Below, piece by piece: positions 272 through 6,757 of a DNA stretch of 64,000 nt. The position numbers and the translations under genes were made by a program. The notes beneath the pieces were generated by a model, which saw only the letters and a list, made by a program, of their open reading frames with translations, was not told where the DNA came from and made no database searches. The first letter of the stretch is position 1. The number at the start of each line of letters is the position of its first letter. The DNA comes from Pontibacter diazotrophicus (GTDB taxonomy: Bacteria; Bacteroidota; Bacteroidia; Cytophagales; Hymenobacteraceae). The stretch spans positions 248,001 through 312,000 of the forward strand of contig NZ_QRGR01000001.1 of the NCBI RefSeq assembly GCF_003367245.1, written 5' to 3'.

Positions 272-907
272 TTAGTTACCAATTCGAGCCCCGGAGCCCT
301 CTTCCTCTCTGTCTCTGACACCGGTCGGTGTGTCGTAGCCCTGCATAAAATCCTGAGATTTTGCCTGTTCCATTTGTGCCTGAAGTTCTTTGCGGGTATC
401 GCGCGCCCAGATGCTGAACGCCGTTGCATCTGATTCTTCGACATCTTTCAGTGTATTGTCAAACTCATTTATCGCTTTCTGCTGCGCATCCGCCAGTTCT
501 TCCCAGTATTTTTCATCAAACTCAGTGACTGCAGTGTTCTGTAATTCCTCTACGTGTTCCGCCTGTTCGTCATTCAGTTCCAGCGGCAATGTAACATTAT
601 ACTGCTGCGCCATTTCCCGTAGCTGTGCCTGTTTGTCGCTGTACCAGTCCATCAGCCGTTGTCCGTACACCCGCACGCCTTCGGTGTTGCCATGCTCGGT
701 AGCCAGGCGGCCCAGTTCCATCTGTAGCATGTTGTTTCGGGCAGCATATACCATCAGTTCCTGTTTTTCTTCGGTTATCGCAGTGTCAGGGGCTACTACT
801 GGTGTTCCGGTGGCTGCGGTATTTTGCTGATCATTTGTTCCAGAGTCGCAGGAGGCGAAGGTGAGTACCCCTCCCAGAAAAGCGACGGCAAGTATCATCT
901 TTTTCAT
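272..907 (-). CDS. DUF4142-family lipoprotein
   Basis: 211 aa. A lipoprotein signal peptide ends in the lipobox FASC with Cys20, so the mature protein is probably membrane anchored in the periplasm or outer membrane. A Thr/Ala/Pro-poor linker follows, then a mostly helical domain (about residues 48-185) with the DUF4142 pattern: a conserved MLQMELG.LA segment, the VR.YGQ.LM.WYSDKQAQL helix and a second long helical pair. Members of this family are common in Bacteroidota and soil bacteria and resemble ferritin-like bundles, but no function is established. The acidic C-terminal tail (REEEGSGARIGN) falls outside the domain. It is monocistronic, facing the esterase. Confidence 0.85.
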   Translation of the reverse strand: MKKMILAVAFLGGVLTFASCDSGTNDQQNTAATGTPVVAPDTAITEEKQELMVYAARNNMLQMELGRLATEHGNTEGVRVYGQRLMDWYSDKQAQLREMAQQYNVTLPLELNDEQAEHVEELQNTAVTEFDEKYWEELADAQQKAINEFDNTLKDVEESDATAFSIWARDTRKELQAQMEQAKSQDFMQGYDTPTGVRDREEEGSGARIGN

Positions 908-1300
908 AGTGTATCGTTTCTTTAAGTAGAATTACATGTATATACCTTTTGCATACGAAACTACCGAAATTTGTTTTCTGCATAGCAACATAGCATGAAA
1001 GAGGGCAGGTGCCTTGAATGGGCGCAAAGGAAAACTTTTACATAAAATATCCCCTTACATATACATAAGGAAGCAAAGTCATGCATTTTCTTATGTTAGG
1101 GCTATAAGTTCTACAGTAAACCGAAAATTGATGTAGTAACTATTCGTATGTCTTAATGCTGTGCCTCTTTTTTTGGCCGCTTGTTCTAGATTGCATTATG
1201 CCTGCCAGATAGTTGGATGATCGAAGATTGTATTTAGGGCTGTAACCCAAAGACTTTTAGCAGTTAAATTACAATGCGTTCGGTGGCGCAGGTTTATAAA
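908..1300. other. intergenic region, no gene seen
   Basis: About 390 bases upstream of the DUF4142 gene and downstream of the stress-protein gene. I see no supportable ORF, tRNA or repeat. A GGGTTACA on the minus strand near 1244-1251 lacks the partner element found in the sigma-regulon promoters at 5.5-6.3 kb. Confidence 0.6.
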
Positions 1301-1330
1301 AAAAGCCTGCCCTTCTACAGGCAGGCTTTT
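1301..1330 (-). terminator. terminator of the stress-protein gene
   Basis: An 11-bp perfect stem (1301-1311 / 1320-1330) with an 8-base loop is followed, reading the minus strand, by a run of Ts. It lies 20 bases past the stop of the gene at 1350-1883. Confidence 0.85.
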
Positions 1331-1349
1331 CTTTCATTTATTTTATCTA

Positions 1350-1883
1350 CTAATAATAGATGTGTTCACCTCTGTTTTTCTGGAAGTGTGTCTCGAAGTA
1401 ACGTGCATCTTCAGCGTTGTGAGGTCTGAAACCAAGCACGATGTTACCTTCTTTAACACCCGATTCGTACACTTTAGCACGCTCTTCAGGTATACCAGCA
1501 CCTACTAAGGCACCAATCAAGCCACCTGTAAGACCACCCGCACCCGCACCGGCAAGACCTGCTGCCAGCGGGCCAGCAACTACCAGTCCTAAGCCTGGAA
1601 TTGCCACAGAAGTACCAATAGCGGCCACGGCTCCTACGATAGCACCTAATGTACCACCAATTGCTGAACCAGCACCCGTACCTTCAAGAGACTTGTTGCC
1701 AAGCTCTGTGGTATCTTCTCTGTCTTCGTCACTGAAATGGCGCTTACGAGCGTCATCCGACATCACTACATTTATATCATCTTTATCATACCCACGTGCT
1801 CTCAATTCTTCATAGGCAGTTTCCGCGCTTGCTCTGTCAGGAAACATTGCGGTCATCATACCTGCATCATCTGTTCTGTTCAT
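1350..1883 (-). CDS. general stress protein 17M-like (YflT-type) with Gly-rich hydrophobic core
   Basis: 177 aa. Residues 10-50 match the heat-induced/general-stress 17M-like domain: a Phe-x-Asp-Arg start, an AE.AYEELRARGY helix and the strand DINVVMSD. Residues ~68-130 are a Gly/Ala-rich hydrophobic stretch with small-residue repeats, likely membrane inserting, followed by a short domain with an EG.IVLGFRPH-like strand typical of the family's repeat. No signal peptide is visible. Homologues are stress-induced in Bacillus and common in desiccation-tolerant bacteria; the molecular role is unknown. Its fasciclin and DUF4142 neighbours suggest an envelope/stress neighbourhood. It has its own terminator. 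Confidence 0.8.
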   Translation of the reverse strand: MNRTDDAGMMTAMFPDRASAETAYEELRARGYDKDDINVVMSDDARKRHFSDEDREDTTELGNKSLEGTGAGSAIGGTLGAIVGAVAAIGTSVAIPGLGLVVAGPLAAGLAGAGAGGLTGGLIGALVGAGIPEERAKVYESGVKEGNIVLGFRPHNAEDARYFETHFQKNRGEHIYY

Positions 1884-2009
1884 AGTCTTTTTCTTTATAG
1901 TTCATTTAATAGTTCGTAAGGCAGCAAAGGCTTATTTATAAGTTTTCCCTGCCCCTAGTCTTAACGGTGCCAGACAACTATGGGTTACATTCTGGAGTTT
2001 AGCCTTGCG

Positions 2010-2657
2010 CTAGTCGTTGCTGTTCTGAGGTGGAATAAGCACTCTGTCCACCACGTGCACGATTCCGTTGGAAGCCTGTACATCGGGAGTGATCACTTTC
2101 GCACCGCCCACCGTTATAGCAGAGCCATTTTTGGTTACAACCACTTCATCACCTTGTGCTGTTACCATAGGCATGTTATCCTGCATCTCTGCTGAGCTTA
2201 TCCTGTTGGGGAGCACGTGTGCCTGTATTATCCGCGTTAACTCCATCTTACTGGCAGGGTCTTTCAAGCTTTCGATAGTACCTGCCGGAAGAGCGTCAAA
2301 AGCCTCATTTGTCGGTGCAAAAACAGTATAAGGGGCAGGGCTTTCTAAGATTGTAACTAAGTCGGAGGCACGTATCAGCTCCAGAAAAGTAGATAGATTG
2401 GGGTTTTGCTGCACCAGCGCCACAATGTTCATATTGCGGCCAATCGTGTTATCAGCCGACACAGTATTGTTACCCGTGCGCTCCGCCGACATGTCTGTAT
2501 CCGGATCCATTGGGTCCTGCGAGCCAGACGCGTCTTCTGTGACCTGGGTTTCTACTGCTGTGCCTGTGATGGTTGTGCCAGTTTCTGAGCCGGCACAACC
2601 ATAGCTAAAGACAGCTGTTGCAGCTATCAATATTGAATGTTGGACTGTTATTTTCAT
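2010..2657 (-). CDS. fasciclin-domain lipoprotein (copy 1)
   Basis: 215 aa. A signal peptide with lipobox SYGC (Cys21) is followed by a ~50-residue Ser/Thr/Asp-rich linker and one fasciclin (FAS1, beta-Ig-H3) domain at ~75-211. Diagnostic motifs are TVFAPTNEAF (H1-like), the AHVLPN.ISS segment and the closing NGIVHVVDRVL.P (H2-like). FAS1 proteins are cell-surface or secreted and often take part in adhesion. The next gene downstream in coding orientation (2916-3656) is a paralogue with the same architecture. No terminator hairpin stands out after its stop. Confidence 0.9.
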   Translation of the reverse strand: MKITVQHSILIAATAVFSYGCAGSETGTTITGTAVETQVTEDASGSQDPMDPDTDMSAERTGNNTVSADNTIGRNMNIVALVQQNPNLSTFLELIRASDLVTILESPAPYTVFAPTNEAFDALPAGTIESLKDPASKMELTRIIQAHVLPNRISSAEMQDNMPMVTAQGDEVVVTKNGSAITVGGAKVITPDVQASNGIVHVVDRVLIPPQNSND

Positions 2658-2847
2658 AGAGCTTGTTGTATTGTGGTTTTATAAAATGACCAAACATATC
2701 TGTCTTCATTCCGTTTCTGCCGCTGGATTTAGTGCTGTGAAGAGGGAGCTGCAAAAGGAATATGTACAAGTTATATGTGGCTTGTAAAAGGCTTTCTCAC
2801 GGTTACAGTTTCGCTTCGTCTCCGGAATCAAAACACATAGAGGGTAA

Positions 2848-2887
2848 AAAAGAAAAGCTCTTCCTGTGTAGGAAGAGCTTTTCTTTT
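2848..2887 (-). terminator. terminator of fasciclin gene copy 2
   Basis: A 17-bp inverted repeat (2848-2864 / 2871-2887) with a 6-base loop (tgtgta) is flanked by A and T tracts. It sits 29 bases past the stop of the gene at 2916-3656. Confidence 0.85.
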
Positions 2888-2915
2888 TAGTCTGTCAATT
2901 TCAATTTGTTAAGGA

Positions 2916-3656
2916 TTAGTATCCCATACGAGTGTCTTCAACAGCAACCTGGTCTGGTAAAATAACACTATCCACTACATGGATATAACCGTTAGAGGCT
3001 TCTATATTGTTTTTTACAATGTTAGCACCACCAATAGCAACGTTAGTACCATTCATGGTCACGTCTATCGGGATATAACGGTCTTCAGTAAACTGAATTC
3101 GCTGCGTAGTGTTAAACTGCGCTGAACTCACTTTGCTTGGCAGCACATGTGCCTGTAATACCCGCATTAAATTGGCTCTGTTATCAGGACCTATCAGCAT
3201 TTCCAACTGTTGTCTGTCCATGTTGGCAAAGGCTTCATTTGTAGGCGCAAAAAGGGTTGCTTGATCCAGACGCTCTATATCCTGTACCATACCAGCTTGC
3301 TCAATCAGTGTTACAAAAGTAGTAAGGTTAGGGCTTCTTCTGGCTAAGTCCATAAGCTGATACTGCTCAGTATCGTCGATGTCATCAAACATGTCGCCAA
3401 CCGAAACAGGGTTTTCTAAAGGGAGAGTGGCAACTTCTATTGTCGCGACCGGAGCTACTATTTCTCTTTCTATCACCAGAGAGCGCATAGCGTTTTCTTC
3501 TGTGTCAGCAGCGGTTCCTGCCATAGACTGCGTTTCGCTCATGGTTGCTGATGTGTCCATAGCGGTGGTATCATCCATAGTAGTCGTGTCAGAACCAGCG
3601 CAACCGAACATCATTACTGCGGCAAATGCCATAGGTATTATCGTTTTCTTTTTCAT
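2916..3656 (-). CDS. fasciclin-domain lipoprotein (copy 2)
   Basis: 246 aa from the ATG at 3656. An upstream in-frame ATG at 3689 would put 11 polar residues before a perfect signal peptide, so the inner start is preferred. The lipobox is MFGC (Cys19). A long Thr/Met/Asp/Ala-rich linker (~20-100) leads to one FAS1 domain with LTTFVTLIEQAGM, TLFAPTNEAFA, AHVLPSKVSS and NGYIHVVDSVILP. It is clearly paralogous to the protein at 2010-2657, with a longer linker. Probable surface or periplasmic adhesion or matrix role, inferred from the family. It has its own terminator. Confidence 0.9.
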   Translation of the reverse strand: MKKKTIIPMAFAAVMMFGCAGSDTTTMDDTTAMDTSATMSETQSMAGTAADTEENAMRSLVIEREIVAPVATIEVATLPLENPVSVGDMFDDIDDTEQYQLMDLARRSPNLTTFVTLIEQAGMVQDIERLDQATLFAPTNEAFANMDRQQLEMLIGPDNRANLMRVLQAHVLPSKVSSAQFNTTQRIQFTEDRYIPIDVTMNGTNVAIGGANIVKNNIEASNGYIHVVDSVILPDQVAVEDTRMGY

Positions 3657-3827
3657 AGTTATCAGGTTTTTAAGTTCAGAGATATACAATCTTCATTGAT
3701 CGTTCATCTATATTAACTTATTATTATAACTGATTTTAAAAGAAAATGTTAAGCCTTGGGGGTTGAATTTAGTCACCTGTAGCACCTTGTTTTTGAGTTA
3801 TGCTAAAGGGTTACAGGGTTTTACGAA

Positions 3828-4919
3828 TTAATTATACACCTTCACTACAAAAACGTAGTCTTTAAGCTTTTTAAGTTGCTGTGGTCTGTTCTGGCCTGAA
3901 AGTGCATTTTTTTGTGGTAGAGTTAATGCGATAGCCGCCGAGGTATCTGTTTGCGGTAACTCATTGATCATCTGCAGTAGATAAGCTGATTTAATGGCGA
4001 AGGCAGCCCCTTCCTGCCCGGCTTGCTTGCCACTGATAACGCCTATCAGGTTGCCCTTGTCGTCGAGCAAAGGTCCTCCGCTATTGCCCGGGTTAAGCGG
4101 TATAGATATCTGGTAAGCCGTTGTATCGCCCTCAAAACCGCTGGCGGAGCTTAACGAACCTTCTCCAAACACGATGTCTTCGCGTGGGTAACCTAAGGTA
4201 TATACTTTCTCTCCTAAGTCAGATTCTGCTGTTTTAAAAGTGTAAGGCAGCTTACCAAAGGTTGTGAACGCAGGGTCAGAAACTTTCAGGATGGAAAGGT
4301 CGTGAATCTGGTCGCGGTACACTTCTACTACTTTATACTTCTGCCCGGCCTCGTTCTCGATCAGCACAGAATCAGCACCTTCTACTACGTGAGAGCTGGT
4401 AACGAGATACCCGTCCGCGTTAATGGCAAAGCCTGTGCCGCTGAAGGCAGCAGGACGCGGGGCCGGTTTCGTGGCATCGTTGATGCCGTTGATGATGGCC
4501 GTTTGTGTTTTCTTCAGGAGCTCTACTTCGCGGCGAAGTTCTACGTAATGGGCGGTTTGCTGCCGCACCGGGGCTTTCAGTTGTTGTACACTCCAGAGCG
4601 TGCCGAACACAGAAAGCAAAGATACGCTGGCGGCAACAGCAACTGTTTGCACATGGCGGTTCCAGAAGACTTTCCATGGAGCCGGCGTGGCCACAGCGGT
4701 TTCGTCTTCCATTTCTGAATGAATGAGGTTCAGTTGCTGCTTTAGTGACTGGCGCTGGCCAAAGCTGCGCATGGTGTGCAGCAGTTTCCTGTGCTCACGC
4801 ACCTGCTCTGCCAGGCGCGGATCCGTACGCAGCAGCACTTCAAAAGCTGCCCTTTCATCGGCAGCCATCTCATTGTTCAGGTAGCTCTCAATTTGCTCGT
4901 AAGCGCGGTACTCTAACAT
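3828..4919 (-). CDS. membrane-anchored trypsin-like (S1C) serine protease with anti-sigma-like N-terminus
   Basis: 363 aa. Residues 1-50 (ESYLNNEMAADERAAFE..L..DP.LAEQV) match the helical N-terminus of Bacteroidota anti-sigma factors. A single transmembrane segment lies at ~91-113, then a short coiled coil (~118-142), then a trypsin-like domain (~158-320) with the full triad His177 (SSHVV), Asp207 (HDLSIL) and Ser280 (GNSGGP). No PDZ domain follows. The topology puts the N-terminus in the cytoplasm and the protease in the periplasm. The gene starts 47 bases after the sigma-factor stop, on the same strand, so the two are probably co-transcribed. Inference: an anti-sigma/sensor protease for that sigma factor. 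Alternatively it is a DegS-like protease whose N-terminus only resembles anti-sigma proteins. Confidence 0.8.
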   Translation of the reverse strand: MLEYRAYEQIESYLNNEMAADERAAFEVLLRTDPRLAEQVREHRKLLHTMRSFGQRQSLKQQLNLIHSEMEDETAVATPAPWKVFWNRHVQTVAVAASVSLLSVFGTLWSVQQLKAPVRQQTAHYVELRREVELLKKTQTAIINGINDATKPAPRPAAFSGTGFAINADGYLVTSSHVVEGADSVLIENEAGQKYKVVEVYRDQIHDLSILKVSDPAFTTFGKLPYTFKTAESDLGEKVYTLGYPREDIVFGEGSLSSASGFEGDTTAYQISIPLNPGNSGGPLLDDKGNLIGVISGKQAGQEGAAFAIKSAYLLQMINELPQTDTSAAIALTLPQKNALSGQNRPQQLKKLKDYVFVVKVYN

Positions 4920-4966
4920 TGTTGTTTTTTCTGTGGCCTTGTGCAGGCCTTTTAAAGCTAACCCTT

Positions 4967-5548
4967 TTATACCTCGGGTTTATAGGTGGCAAAAAATAGT
5001 TTCTTCAGGCGTTGCAGGCATTTATACTTCTGGTTTTTGGCTGTATCGGAGTTGGTATAGCCAAACTTCTCCGTAATCACCTGCATGTTCTGCATCCTGA
5101 TGTAATAGTCCTCCAGTAAAGAGCGGCAGGGTTCTCCCAGTTGCTCAAGAGACTCACCCATGATGCCAAACTGCCTTTCCTGCTCTTCGTGGTGTTGCGT
5201 GTCTTCCTCTACAGGTAAAAAAGACTCCGAATCCTCCATCTTTACGGCGTATCGTCCTTTTTCTGCCAGCCGTTTCAGCCATAGCCTGCGACATACCGAG
5301 TACAGGTAAGTTTTTATCTGGCAGCTCAACTCCAGTGTATTCCCCTTTATTTTCTCATAGAACACGATGACGCCTTCCTGGTAAATGTCTTTCGCCTCGT
5401 CGTCAGTTCCGCTGTTACTCAGAATAAAATGGGAAATCATCGGGAAATAAAGTTTGTATAGGTAAGCCAACGCTCTTTCGTCGTCGCGCCGAATGCCCTC
5501 CAGAATCGCCTCATCCGTCTCATACAAACTCTTCTTCATTCCAATCAA
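4967..5548 (-). CDS. ECF-type RNA polymerase sigma factor
   Basis: 193 aa. The sigma-70 region 2 lies at ~25-95 (ALAYLYKLYFPMI, the EAKDIYQEGVIVFYEKI helix, and the YLYSVCRRLW segment of regions 2.3-2.4). Region 4 lies at ~125-190 (LEQLGEPCRSLLEDYYI, then a helix-turn-helix with ITEKFGYTNSDTAKNQKYKCLQRLKK). No extra domain. The start may be 5548 or the second Met at 5539. It heads an apparent two-gene operon with the anti-sigma-like protease and is divergent from the small lipoprotein genes. Its own upstream region carries the same two-part motif as theirs, which suggests autoregulation. Confidence 0.9.
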   Translation of the reverse strand: MIGMKKSLYETDEAILEGIRRDDERALAYLYKLYFPMISHFILSNSGTDDEAKDIYQEGVIVFYEKIKGNTLELSCQIKTYLYSVCRRLWLKRLAEKGRYAVKMEDSESFLPVEEDTQHHEEQERQFGIMGESLEQLGEPCRSLLEDYYIRMQNMQVITEKFGYTNSDTAKNQKYKCLQRLKKLFFATYKPEV

Positions 5549-5550
5549 TT

Positions 5551-5579
5551 TTAATACGTTTAGGGGCGCAATGTAACCC
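5551..5579 (-). promoter_or_regulatory. putative ECF promoter of the sigma-factor operon
   Basis: Reading the minus strand, GGGTTACA (5579-5572), 15 bases, then TATTAA (5556-5551). Spacing and both elements match the promoters of the two divergent lipoprotein genes. The -10-like element is only a few bases from the ATG at 5548, so the transcript would be almost leaderless or start at the inner ATG at 5539. Confidence 0.6.
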
Positions 5580-5614
5580 TCTGAAAAAATATTTTTTAAT
5601 TTTTTTAAAAAGGC

Positions 5615-5644
5615 GGGTTACCTGTGGCCTGTTTCGGTATGAAG
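5615..5644 (+). promoter_or_regulatory. putative ECF promoter of lipoprotein gene 1
   Basis: GGGTTACC (5615-5622), 15 bases, TATGAAG (5638-5644), about 39 bases before the ATG. It is the same architecture as at 6273-6302 and 5579-5551. An A/T-rich stretch (5584-5610) precedes it, as an UP-like element would. Confidence 0.65.
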
Positions 5645-5682
5645 TTAAAATCGAAACCAAAACACTTAATCACAAACACAAA

Positions 5683-5898
5683 ATGAAAAATCTATTTAAA
5701 TTCGCTTTCGTAGCTCTTGCCCTTACTGCTTTCACTGCTTGCAACGAAGAAGCTGCAACAACTGAAACTGAAGCTGTAGAAACTGAAGTTGTTACAGAAG
5801 AAGAAGTAGCTCCAGTTACTGAAGAAACTGTAGTTGAAGATACTACTGCTACTGTAGTTGAAGAAACTCCAGCTACTGAGACTCCAGCTGCTCAGTAA
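5683..5898 (+). CDS. small acidic lipoprotein (tandem copy 1)
   Basis: 71 aa. A clear lipoprotein signal peptide with lipobox FTAC (Cys20) is followed by a 51-residue low-complexity tail of Glu, Thr, Val, Ala and Pro, with no aromatic or basic residue. The tail is expected to be disordered and strongly negative. I recognise no family. The first ~80 coding bases differ from copy 2 (6343-6579) at only two silent positions, so duplication or gene conversion was recent. It has its own promoter and terminator. Its position next to a sigma/anti-sigma pair and its shared promoter motif make it a likely regulon member, perhaps an abundant envelope-stress lipoprotein. Function unknown. Confidence 0.8.
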   Translation: MKNLFKFAFVALALTAFTACNEEAATTETEAVETEVVTEEEVAPVTEETVVEDTTATVVEETPATETPAAQ

Positions 5899-5940
5899 TC
5901 TAAGCAAGAACTACAGCGTATAGCTTATAGTTCTAAAGCA

Positions 5941-5980
5941 TACAGAGAGGCCCCATGCAACAGCGTGGGGCCTCTCTGTA
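5941..5980 (+). terminator. terminator of lipoprotein gene 1
   Basis: A 15-bp perfect stem (5941-5955 / 5966-5980), loop tgcaacagcg, then TTTT. The loop is identical to that of the terminator at 6625-6662, while two stem base pairs differ by compensating changes. Confidence 0.9.
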
Positions 5981-6272
5981 TTTTCTCCCCTTGCTGAAGT
6001 GCCTCCTTTCTGCCTCCATACGTTCTCCTTCTACAACTTTATCGCAAGGAACTGCATGGCTTCAGAAGCCTTACTTAACTGCCGTATTAACAGCTGCATA
6101 AAATAAGGGAAGGCTAAGGTTAAAAACAAAGTAACCCCTGTTGCAGTAAGTATTTTTACCTCCCGCGATAATTTATTTATTGCTATAACCAATTGGTTTA
6201 TTGAGTTTTATGTATGGCCATGATTCTGTATCTGGCCCTTTATAAAATATTTTTAATTTTTTTCTAAAAGCC

Positions 6273-6302
6273 GGGTTACCTAAATCCAGTTTCAGTATGA
6301 AG
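6273..6302 (+). promoter_or_regulatory. putative ECF promoter of lipoprotein gene 2
   Basis: GGGTTACC (6273-6280), 15 bases, TATGAAG (6296-6302), about 40 bases before the ATG. The 15-base spacer differs from copy 1 in most of its first half, while both boxes are conserved. An A/T-rich tract precedes it. The region between 5981 and 6272 holds no gene that I can support. Confidence 0.65.
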
Positions 6303-6342
6303 TTAAAATCGAAGCCAAAATCACTTAATCACAAACACAAAA

Positions 6343-6579
6343 ATGAAAAATTTATTCAAATTCGCTTTCGTAGCTCTTGCCCTTACTGCTTTCACTGCTT
6401 GCAACGAAGAAGCTGCAACAACTGAGTCTGAAGCTGTTGAGACTGAAGTAGTAACAGAGGAAGAAGTAGTTACTGAAGAAGTAGCTCCAGCTACTGAAGA
6501 AGTTGTAGTTGACTCAACTGTTGTTGAAGAGGCTCCTGCTACTGATGTTCCAGCTACTGAAGCTCCAGCTGCTCACTAA
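6343..6579 (+). CDS. small acidic lipoprotein (tandem copy 2)
   Basis: 78 aa, a paralogue of the protein at 5683-5898: the signal peptide and lipobox (Cys20) are the same, and the tail is longer, with an extra Val-Thr-Glu-Glu unit and repeated Ala-Pro-Ala-Thr-Glu motifs. The tail diverges by in-frame gain and loss of short Glu/Val/Thr units, as expected of a repeat-prone disordered segment. It has its own promoter and hairpin terminator, so each copy is an independent transcription unit. Function unknown; probably the same as copy 1. Confidence 0.8.
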   Translation: MKNLFKFAFVALALTAFTACNEEAATTESEAVETEVVTEEEVVTEEVAPATEEVVVDSTVVEEAPATDVPATEAPAAH

Positions 6580-6624
6580 TTTAAGCAGGAACTACAGCGC
6601 GATTAGCATATAGTTCTAAAACAC

Positions 6625-6662
6625 ACAGAAGGGCCCCATGCAACAGCGTGGGGCCCTTCTGT
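6625..6662 (+). terminator. terminator of lipoprotein gene 2
   Basis: A 14-bp perfect stem (6625-6638 / 6649-6662), loop tgcaacagcg, followed by TTT. It is homologous to 5941-5980 with two compensatory base-pair swaps. Confidence 0.9.
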
Positions 6663-6757
6663 TTTATCTGAATATCTGCAAGCGCCTTTTATACCCTTAG
6701 TTTCAAAAAGGATGGTAACACATTACCCACCTCTTTCTGAAACTATAGCTAATCATC

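Follow-up and report, generated by a model that had tools for sequence, protein, structure and literature searches.

How is a sigma factor controlled when its putative anti-sigma factor and a periplasmic serine protease are a single protein? The question is raised by positions 3828 to 6662 of a 64,000-nucleotide stretch of the Pontibacter diazotrophicus genome (the window; contig NZ_QRGR01000001.1, 248,001 to 312,000), where an extracytoplasmic function (ECF) sigma gene is followed by a gene for such a fusion protein and lies divergent to two small lipoprotein genes. We consider it probable that this is a self-contained, positively autoregulated ECF circuit in which a site-1 protease is fused to the anti-sigma factor that it cuts, with RseP completing release. 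Sequence comparison establishes the gene order, the domain composition, the invariant catalytic triad, the conservation of the promoter and what the targets are, and its conservation evidence strongly supports the circuit; sigma binding and self-cleavage by the fusion protein, and likewise the RseP step, the envelope cue and the function of the lipoproteins, we infer.

Promoter code

The sigma operon and both lipoprotein genes are preceded by the pattern GGGTTAC-N16/17-TATNAA, which matches three times in the window and not once in 100 shuffles.

4967..5539, minus strand: ECF sigma factor gene, 190 amino acids (aa), conserved ATG at 5539, alternative open reading frame (ORF) start TTG at 5548
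5551..5579, minus strand: promoter-like site of the sigma operon, GGGTTAC-N16-TATTAA (pattern match; 103/104 distinct loci)
5580..5614, no strand: A/T-rich stretch separating the two divergent sites (sequence reading)
5615..5643, plus strand: promoter-like site of lipoprotein 1, GGGTTAC-N16-TATGAA (pattern match)
6273..6301, plus strand: promoter-like site of lipoprotein 2, GGGTTAC-N16-TATGAA (pattern match)

The sigma product matches TIGR02937 (sigma70-ECF) over residues 26-183 with 57.4 bits (cut-off 42.9) and Pfam Sigma70_r2 with 26.3 bits (cut-off 24); the Pfam region-4 model has no match in it. The original prediction, made from the sequence of this window, ran the sigma ORF from 4967 to 5548. 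A TTG at 5548 does open the frame; the start that relatives conserve, however, is the ATG at 5539 (MKKSLYE...). It placed the minus-strand site correctly, but the plus-strand sites end one base earlier than it stated, at 5643 and 6301.

A search of the whole 6.4 Mb genome, which that prediction had proposed, gave five matches to GGGTTAC-N16-TATNAA and none in a reversed control. Three are those of the window. The two extra matches were set aside as chance, L049 lying inside a leuD-like ORF and L050 having no ORF of ≥80 aa starting just downstream; neither is among the matches listed for the sister genome G025. L050 (G000:C70:36935-36963, where G000 is the present genome) has a perfect motif, and a long perfect hairpin stands ∼170 nt further on, which may mark a small RNA or be chance. 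A looser N15-17 pattern gave eight matches against none in the control in the present genome, yet three against five in genome G020. Because the looser pattern is unselective in some genomes, chance is excluded by conservation at orthologous places and not by raw counts.

Conservation was counted over 123 loci, reduced to 104 distinct fusion proteins. The site lies upstream of the sigma gene in 103 of the 104 distinct loci, as against 20 matches in 10,300 in a shuffled control, and its range extends from Pontibacter to Hymenobacter and Sphingobacteriaceae (59 of 60 loci outside Pontibacter by script count). In the 104th, L141 from a metagenome-assembled genome (MAG), the site is present by eye and the sigma gene is frameshifted. 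Spacing in the 103 is N16 in 97 and N17 in six, and the -35 block is GGGTTAC in 100 and AGGTTAC in three. Aligned, the sites show a spacer free to vary while both blocks stay constant, with the reservation that most block columns are required by the search pattern itself. Positions not wholly required by it (the opening G, the G just ahead of TAT and the T in fourth place of the -10 block) hold ∼1.8-1.9 bits, and the A and T runs immediately upstream hold ∼0.6-1.2 bits per column. Conservation across loci rules out a chance motif. Descent by duplication alone accounts for the promoter likeness of the two lipoprotein copies and is ruled out for the sigma site. The shared code and the proposed autoregulation, first suggested from this one window, are strongly supported by conservation over the 104 distinct loci.

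The -10 block ends 11 nt ahead of the ATG in the window, and similarly in many relatives. An ATG 10-17 nt from the site is the first in-frame start in 57/103 loci; in many others the script halted at an earlier in-frame TTG or GTG. A -10 block so near the start codon suggests that the leader of the sigma mRNA is probably very short, making the transcript nearly leaderless.

The fusion protein

The second gene of the operon is laid out as follows.

3828..4919, minus strand: anti-sigma/protease fusion gene, 363 aa (Trypsin_2, NF052375, AlphaFold2 model)
4692..4919, minus strand: anti-sigma-like cytoplasmic helical domain, residues 1-76 (model helices 2-14, 20-32 and 34-76; NF052375)
4584..4646, minus strand: membrane helix, approximately residues 92-112, conserved VAASV at 95-99 (sequence reading and model helix 81-114)
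4476..4550, minus strand: predicted periplasmic stalk helix, residues 124-148 (model helix with low to middling confidence)
3945..4451, minus strand: periplasmic HtrA-type serine protease domain, residues 157-325, with H177/D207/S280 (triad, Foldseek, VIA-align)
3831..3887, minus strand: conserved C-terminal helix and strand, residues 345-363, ending ...YVFVVKVYN (conservation; model confidence ∼90-96)

Re-reading of the window found the four ORFs and the catalytic triad as originally described, and the fusion is real: it is a single open frame with an invariant triad and an HtrA fold. Trypsin_2 matches residues 161-294 of the 363 (8.5e-24), and H177, D207 and S280 are present in 104/104 distinct fusion proteins. 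The membrane helix has two equally invariant residues, A96 and A97, with V95 kept in 98 and V99 in 96 of the 104, and the C-terminus has three, R345, Q348 and V361; the stalk residues L128, R130, K136 and Q139 are conserved at ≥90%. The protein ends 38 residues past the protease domain. A sigma gene adjoins the fusion gene in all 104 distinct loci.

An AlphaFold2 model built with 75 sequences has a mean predicted local distance difference test (pLDDT) score of 84.7; an earlier one from 13 sequences, at pLDDT 53.9, was too poor for use. In Foldseek the top match is DegS lacking the PDZ domain, and with VIA-align the Z score is 20.2 against both HtrA1 (3tjn_B) and DegS (2qf0_F) over approximately residues 150-325, the part that fold-search matches mainly span. 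Scores fall below the cut-offs of the DegS equivalog TIGR02038 (51.6 bits; cut-off 422.95) and the MarP-type NF033740 (77.8 bits over 131-326 only; cut-off 250). Among anti-sigma models other than NF052375, zf-HC2 matches at E ≤ 0.1 in just two of 75 family members, and others are matched by single members.

Small lipoproteins and the regulon

Two tandem units follow the divergent promoter-like sites.

5683..5898, plus strand: small acidic lipoprotein 1, 71 aa, lipobox TAC (ORF; NF050142 at 29.6 bits, cut-off 50)
5940..5981, plus strand: stem-loop, probable terminator of lipoprotein 1 (5925-5985 folds at -38.7 kcal/mol in RNAfold; absent from the terminator scan)
6343..6579, plus strand: small acidic lipoprotein 2, 78 aa, tandem copy of lipoprotein 1 (NF050142 at 30.3 bits, cut-off 50)
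6625..6662, plus strand: stem-loop, likely terminator of lipoprotein 2 (17 pairs; RNAfold -36.0 kcal/mol for 6605-6672)

Both lipoproteins have mature parts of ∼50-60 residues that lack K and R and are rich in D/E, T, V, A and P; the mature part of lipoprotein 1 has 16 D/E in 52 aa. The units are a tandem duplication (5586-5986 against 6244-6669: 351 identities, 39 mismatches and 47 gap letters). Their two sites are therefore not independent and count once, while the sigma site is independent. The tandem pair noted in the original prediction is a local duplication, seen here and in the sister genome G025. Other genera also have tandem copies that each carry a site.

Of the 104 loci, 84 have at least one site that points away from the sigma gene, and seven carry two within the counted stretch. 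Every one of the 91 sites so found precedes a small low-complexity lipoprotein of 48-91 aa, against a background of 96/17,586 other window positions (89 sites were scored by script and two at locus ends, in the window and in L273, were read directly).

Fourteen genomes, 12 without a divergent site and two with one some way off, were searched throughout for sites. The 33 matches comprise 12 at the sigma gene and 21 in other places; G079 has none. Of these 21 non-sigma sites, 17 stand before lipoproteins of 62-102 aa, and three of the 17 adjoin the sigma gene. Sites within coding stretches were seen in some other genomes. In L058 and L059, from two Pontibacter-group genomes, a GGGTTAC site precedes a different small protein of 96 aa, which we take to resemble a glycogen-binding/early-set domain.

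The present genome has a third small acidic lipoprotein (L065, G000:C42:1854-2072) with AGGTTACC-N15-TATAAA upstream. This distal gene, near rnd- and aspartase/fumarase-like genes, was found in 49/50 Pontibacter genomes, and 30 of the 48 with a readable start carry its site (24 strict, and six with AGGTTAC, the present one among these six). The downstream stretch AATAAGTACAAA persists even where the -35 block is lost. A different set in the same genome, L069 (G000:C7:74448-77645), comprises four clustered Glu-rich mini-lipoproteins of 53-77 aa without a GGTTAC site.

The sequence comparisons support a regulon that is tiny and uniform, with the sigma operon and small lipoproteins as its main conserved output. 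Of the envelope-stress regulon originally envisaged, these targets stand, but a broad stress regulon was not seen.

Against NF050142, the PG1828 family, two of ten regulon lipoproteins from other genomes exceed the cut-off of 50, from a Solitalea relative (58.8 bits) and a Sphingobacteriaceae MAG relative (65.5). Many NF050142 matches elsewhere in the phylum have neither the circuit sigma nor a site within ∼1.5 kb, and among 30 NF050142 loci examined across the phylum the circuit sigma was present in five, one being the window itself. We claim no link to PG1827 (SigH, an ECF factor) and PG1828 of Porphyromonas, whose adjacency comes from locus numbers alone.

Distribution

The search for the fusion protein gave full-length relatives in 37/37 same-genus genomes (the present one and 36 others) and in 6/22 genomes of other families in the same order. 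A scan of named species retained the best 80 of at least 556 relatives, so this sample leans to close kin; genera among the 80 are Pontibacter, Botryobacter, Adhaeribacter, Rufibacter, Hymenobacter, Solirubrum, Rhodocytophaga, Solitalea, Pedobacter and Mucilaginibacter, together with several MAGs. An even sample of 148 Bacteroidota genomes, the present one included, has the full-length fusion in 13 and a protease-only match in five more. Four of these five (L220-L222 and L224) belong to a family, f40, whose protease lacks the anti-sigma part; L220-L222 are intact lipoproteins of 450-458 aa with a C-terminal strand similar to that of the fusion protein. Around each of the five genes, the 5 to 5.5 kb examined showed neither a sigma match nor a site. 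The synteny comparison that the original prediction had called for shows the sigma-fusion layout kept well beyond the window, from Pontibacter to Hymenobacter and Sphingobacteriaceae, a broad branch of the Bacteroidota. In the window the circuit stands beside an envelope-type gene run at 272-3689, encoding a DUF4142 protein, a YflT-like protein and two fasciclin-domain proteins.

Mechanism and alternatives

In the circuit that we favor, the sigma factor would recognize GGGTTAC-N16/17-TATNAA and drive its own operon together with at least one, in places several, genes for lipoproteins that are tiny, disordered and usually acidic. The anti-sigma part of the fusion would hold the sigma factor at the inner membrane until an envelope cue activates the periplasmic HtrA/DegS-like protease, which would make the site-1 cut either in cis or across subunits. 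An RseP-type site-2 protease would then cut within the membrane helix, and the released sigma factor would transcribe the lipoprotein genes plus more of its own inhibitor. A self-cut followed by RseP is the simplest reading by analogy with what PMC7593790 and PMC8103513 give for RseA, DegS and RseP. An RseP homologue is present in the genome at 279.5 bits. The membrane-helix stretch VAASVSL resembles VAACVSL of Escherichia coli RseA, in which, according to PMC10024687, the RseP cut falls between A108 and C109.

Several observations weigh against parts of this proposal. The anti-sigma model NF052375 matches residues 11-126 weakly (E 9e-6, 25.8 bits against a cut-off of 100), and at E ≤ 0.01 it matches 51 of 75 family members and misses 24. 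No model for a PDZ or other known sensor domain matches the fusion protein of the window. Profile comparison with RseA (hhalign) gives a probability of 4.4% over 24 columns; homology to RseA is unsupported at this value, and with a match so low the membrane-helix likeness may be generic and is a lead only. On the target side, 20 of 104 loci lack a divergent site, and four of the 21 non-sigma sites in the genome searches (L154, L171, L174 and L274) do not precede a small lipoprotein. At the distal lipoprotein gene, 12 of the 48 Pontibacter genomes keep GGGTTAC at the right spacing but have AATAAA for TATNAA, and six have no recognizable -35 block; with these mixed counts, control of that gene appears common, not universal.

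The same sigma circuit could operate with a fused protease that processes other periplasmic proteins, the sigma factor being released by another protease or by a conformational signal transmitted along the stalk and membrane helix. The protease subfamily does occur without the anti-sigma part (L220-L222, with no sigma match or site within 5 kb), the genome encodes separate HtrA-type proteases (G000:C87), and the linker at residues 113-157 has no evident cleavage site. Against this, fusion, triad and sigma neighbour occur together in 104/104 distinct loci, an inseparability that suggests coupling between proteolysis and sigma control, the cleavage itself being the step that we infer; we regard processing of other substrates as unlikely. 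A pro-sigma or activator role for the N-terminal domain, in place of plain inhibition, would follow some FecR-type regulators, and several cell-surface signalling pathways need the anti-sigma N-domain for sigma activity (PMC7593790). The sole regulator family matched here is the anti-sigma NF052375, weakly, however, and no FecR model appears in the family match lists, which leaves such a role improbable. The motif might instead serve as an operator or belong to a housekeeping promoter, without being recognized by the circuit sigma factor, and the retention of AATAAGTACAAA at the distal lipoprotein despite loss of the -35 block means that another promoter may act there. That reading we hold to be very improbable, given two blocks at a fixed 16-17 nt spacing around a variable spacer, a position a few nt ahead of the sigma ATG, and other sites that mostly precede one gene type.

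The lipoproteins of the favored circuit may serve as a coat, a spacer or a sentinel. A bolder and rather doubtful proposal is a closed loop of lipoprotein homeostasis in a large branch of Bacteroidota, where the tiny disordered lipoproteins, as the dedicated output of the sigma factor, would be the cue when stuck at the inner membrane, and one polypeptide would sense them, cut itself and reset the loop.

Relation to known systems

The closest parallel is E. coli sigmaE/RseA/DegS/RseP (in Pseudomonas, AlgU/MucA/AlgW), with which the Pontibacter circuit shares an ECF sigma, a putative single-pass anti-sigma, a DegS-fold periplasmic protease, an RseP homologue and a similar membrane-helix stretch. 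It differs in that anti-sigma and protease are one polypeptide, without a PDZ domain and without detectable sequence kinship to RseA, and in that its conserved targets are tiny lipoproteins and not a broad envelope regulon. MarP-type proteases (NF033740) are likewise membrane-anchored, periplasmic and trypsin-like, the window match falling below cut-off; MarP is not known to have an anti-sigma part. The PG1828 family (NF050142) resembles the window lipoproteins in small size and low-complexity tail, the window pair again being below cut-off.

Class I anti-sigma factors, as the available part of PMC7406223 presents them, join an N-terminal sigma-binding-type domain of the kind proposed here to group-specific fused domains, here a periplasmic one; a protease domain is not named in that part. 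The same part gives class I anti-sigma genes as adjoining 6% of Bacteroidetes ECF genes against 32% overall, and leaves the control mode of the Bacteroidetes factors open. The dual membrane-spanning anti-sigma (Dma) proteins of Bacteroides are also Bacteroidota membrane anti-sigma factors next to an ECF sigma (PMC13088901); unlike in the present case, protease and trypsin occur only in the methods and references of the available text, which describes no small-lipoprotein regulon.

No published description of a fused anti-sigma/protease ECF circuit was found in the open-licence literature, although the 2021 ECF reclassification may list such a group, and the papers listed for GGGTTAC with sigma were unrelated. 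A merged putative site-1 protease and anti-sigma factor with dedicated tiny-lipoprotein targets is new relative to the literature found. The merger of site-1 protease and substrate would make the RseA/DegS pathway one protein shorter, and the sharp promoter code with its dedicated regulon would tie tiny lipoproteins to envelope signalling. The module may be one concrete, widely kept and readily testable answer to how ECF factors of Bacteroidetes are controlled.

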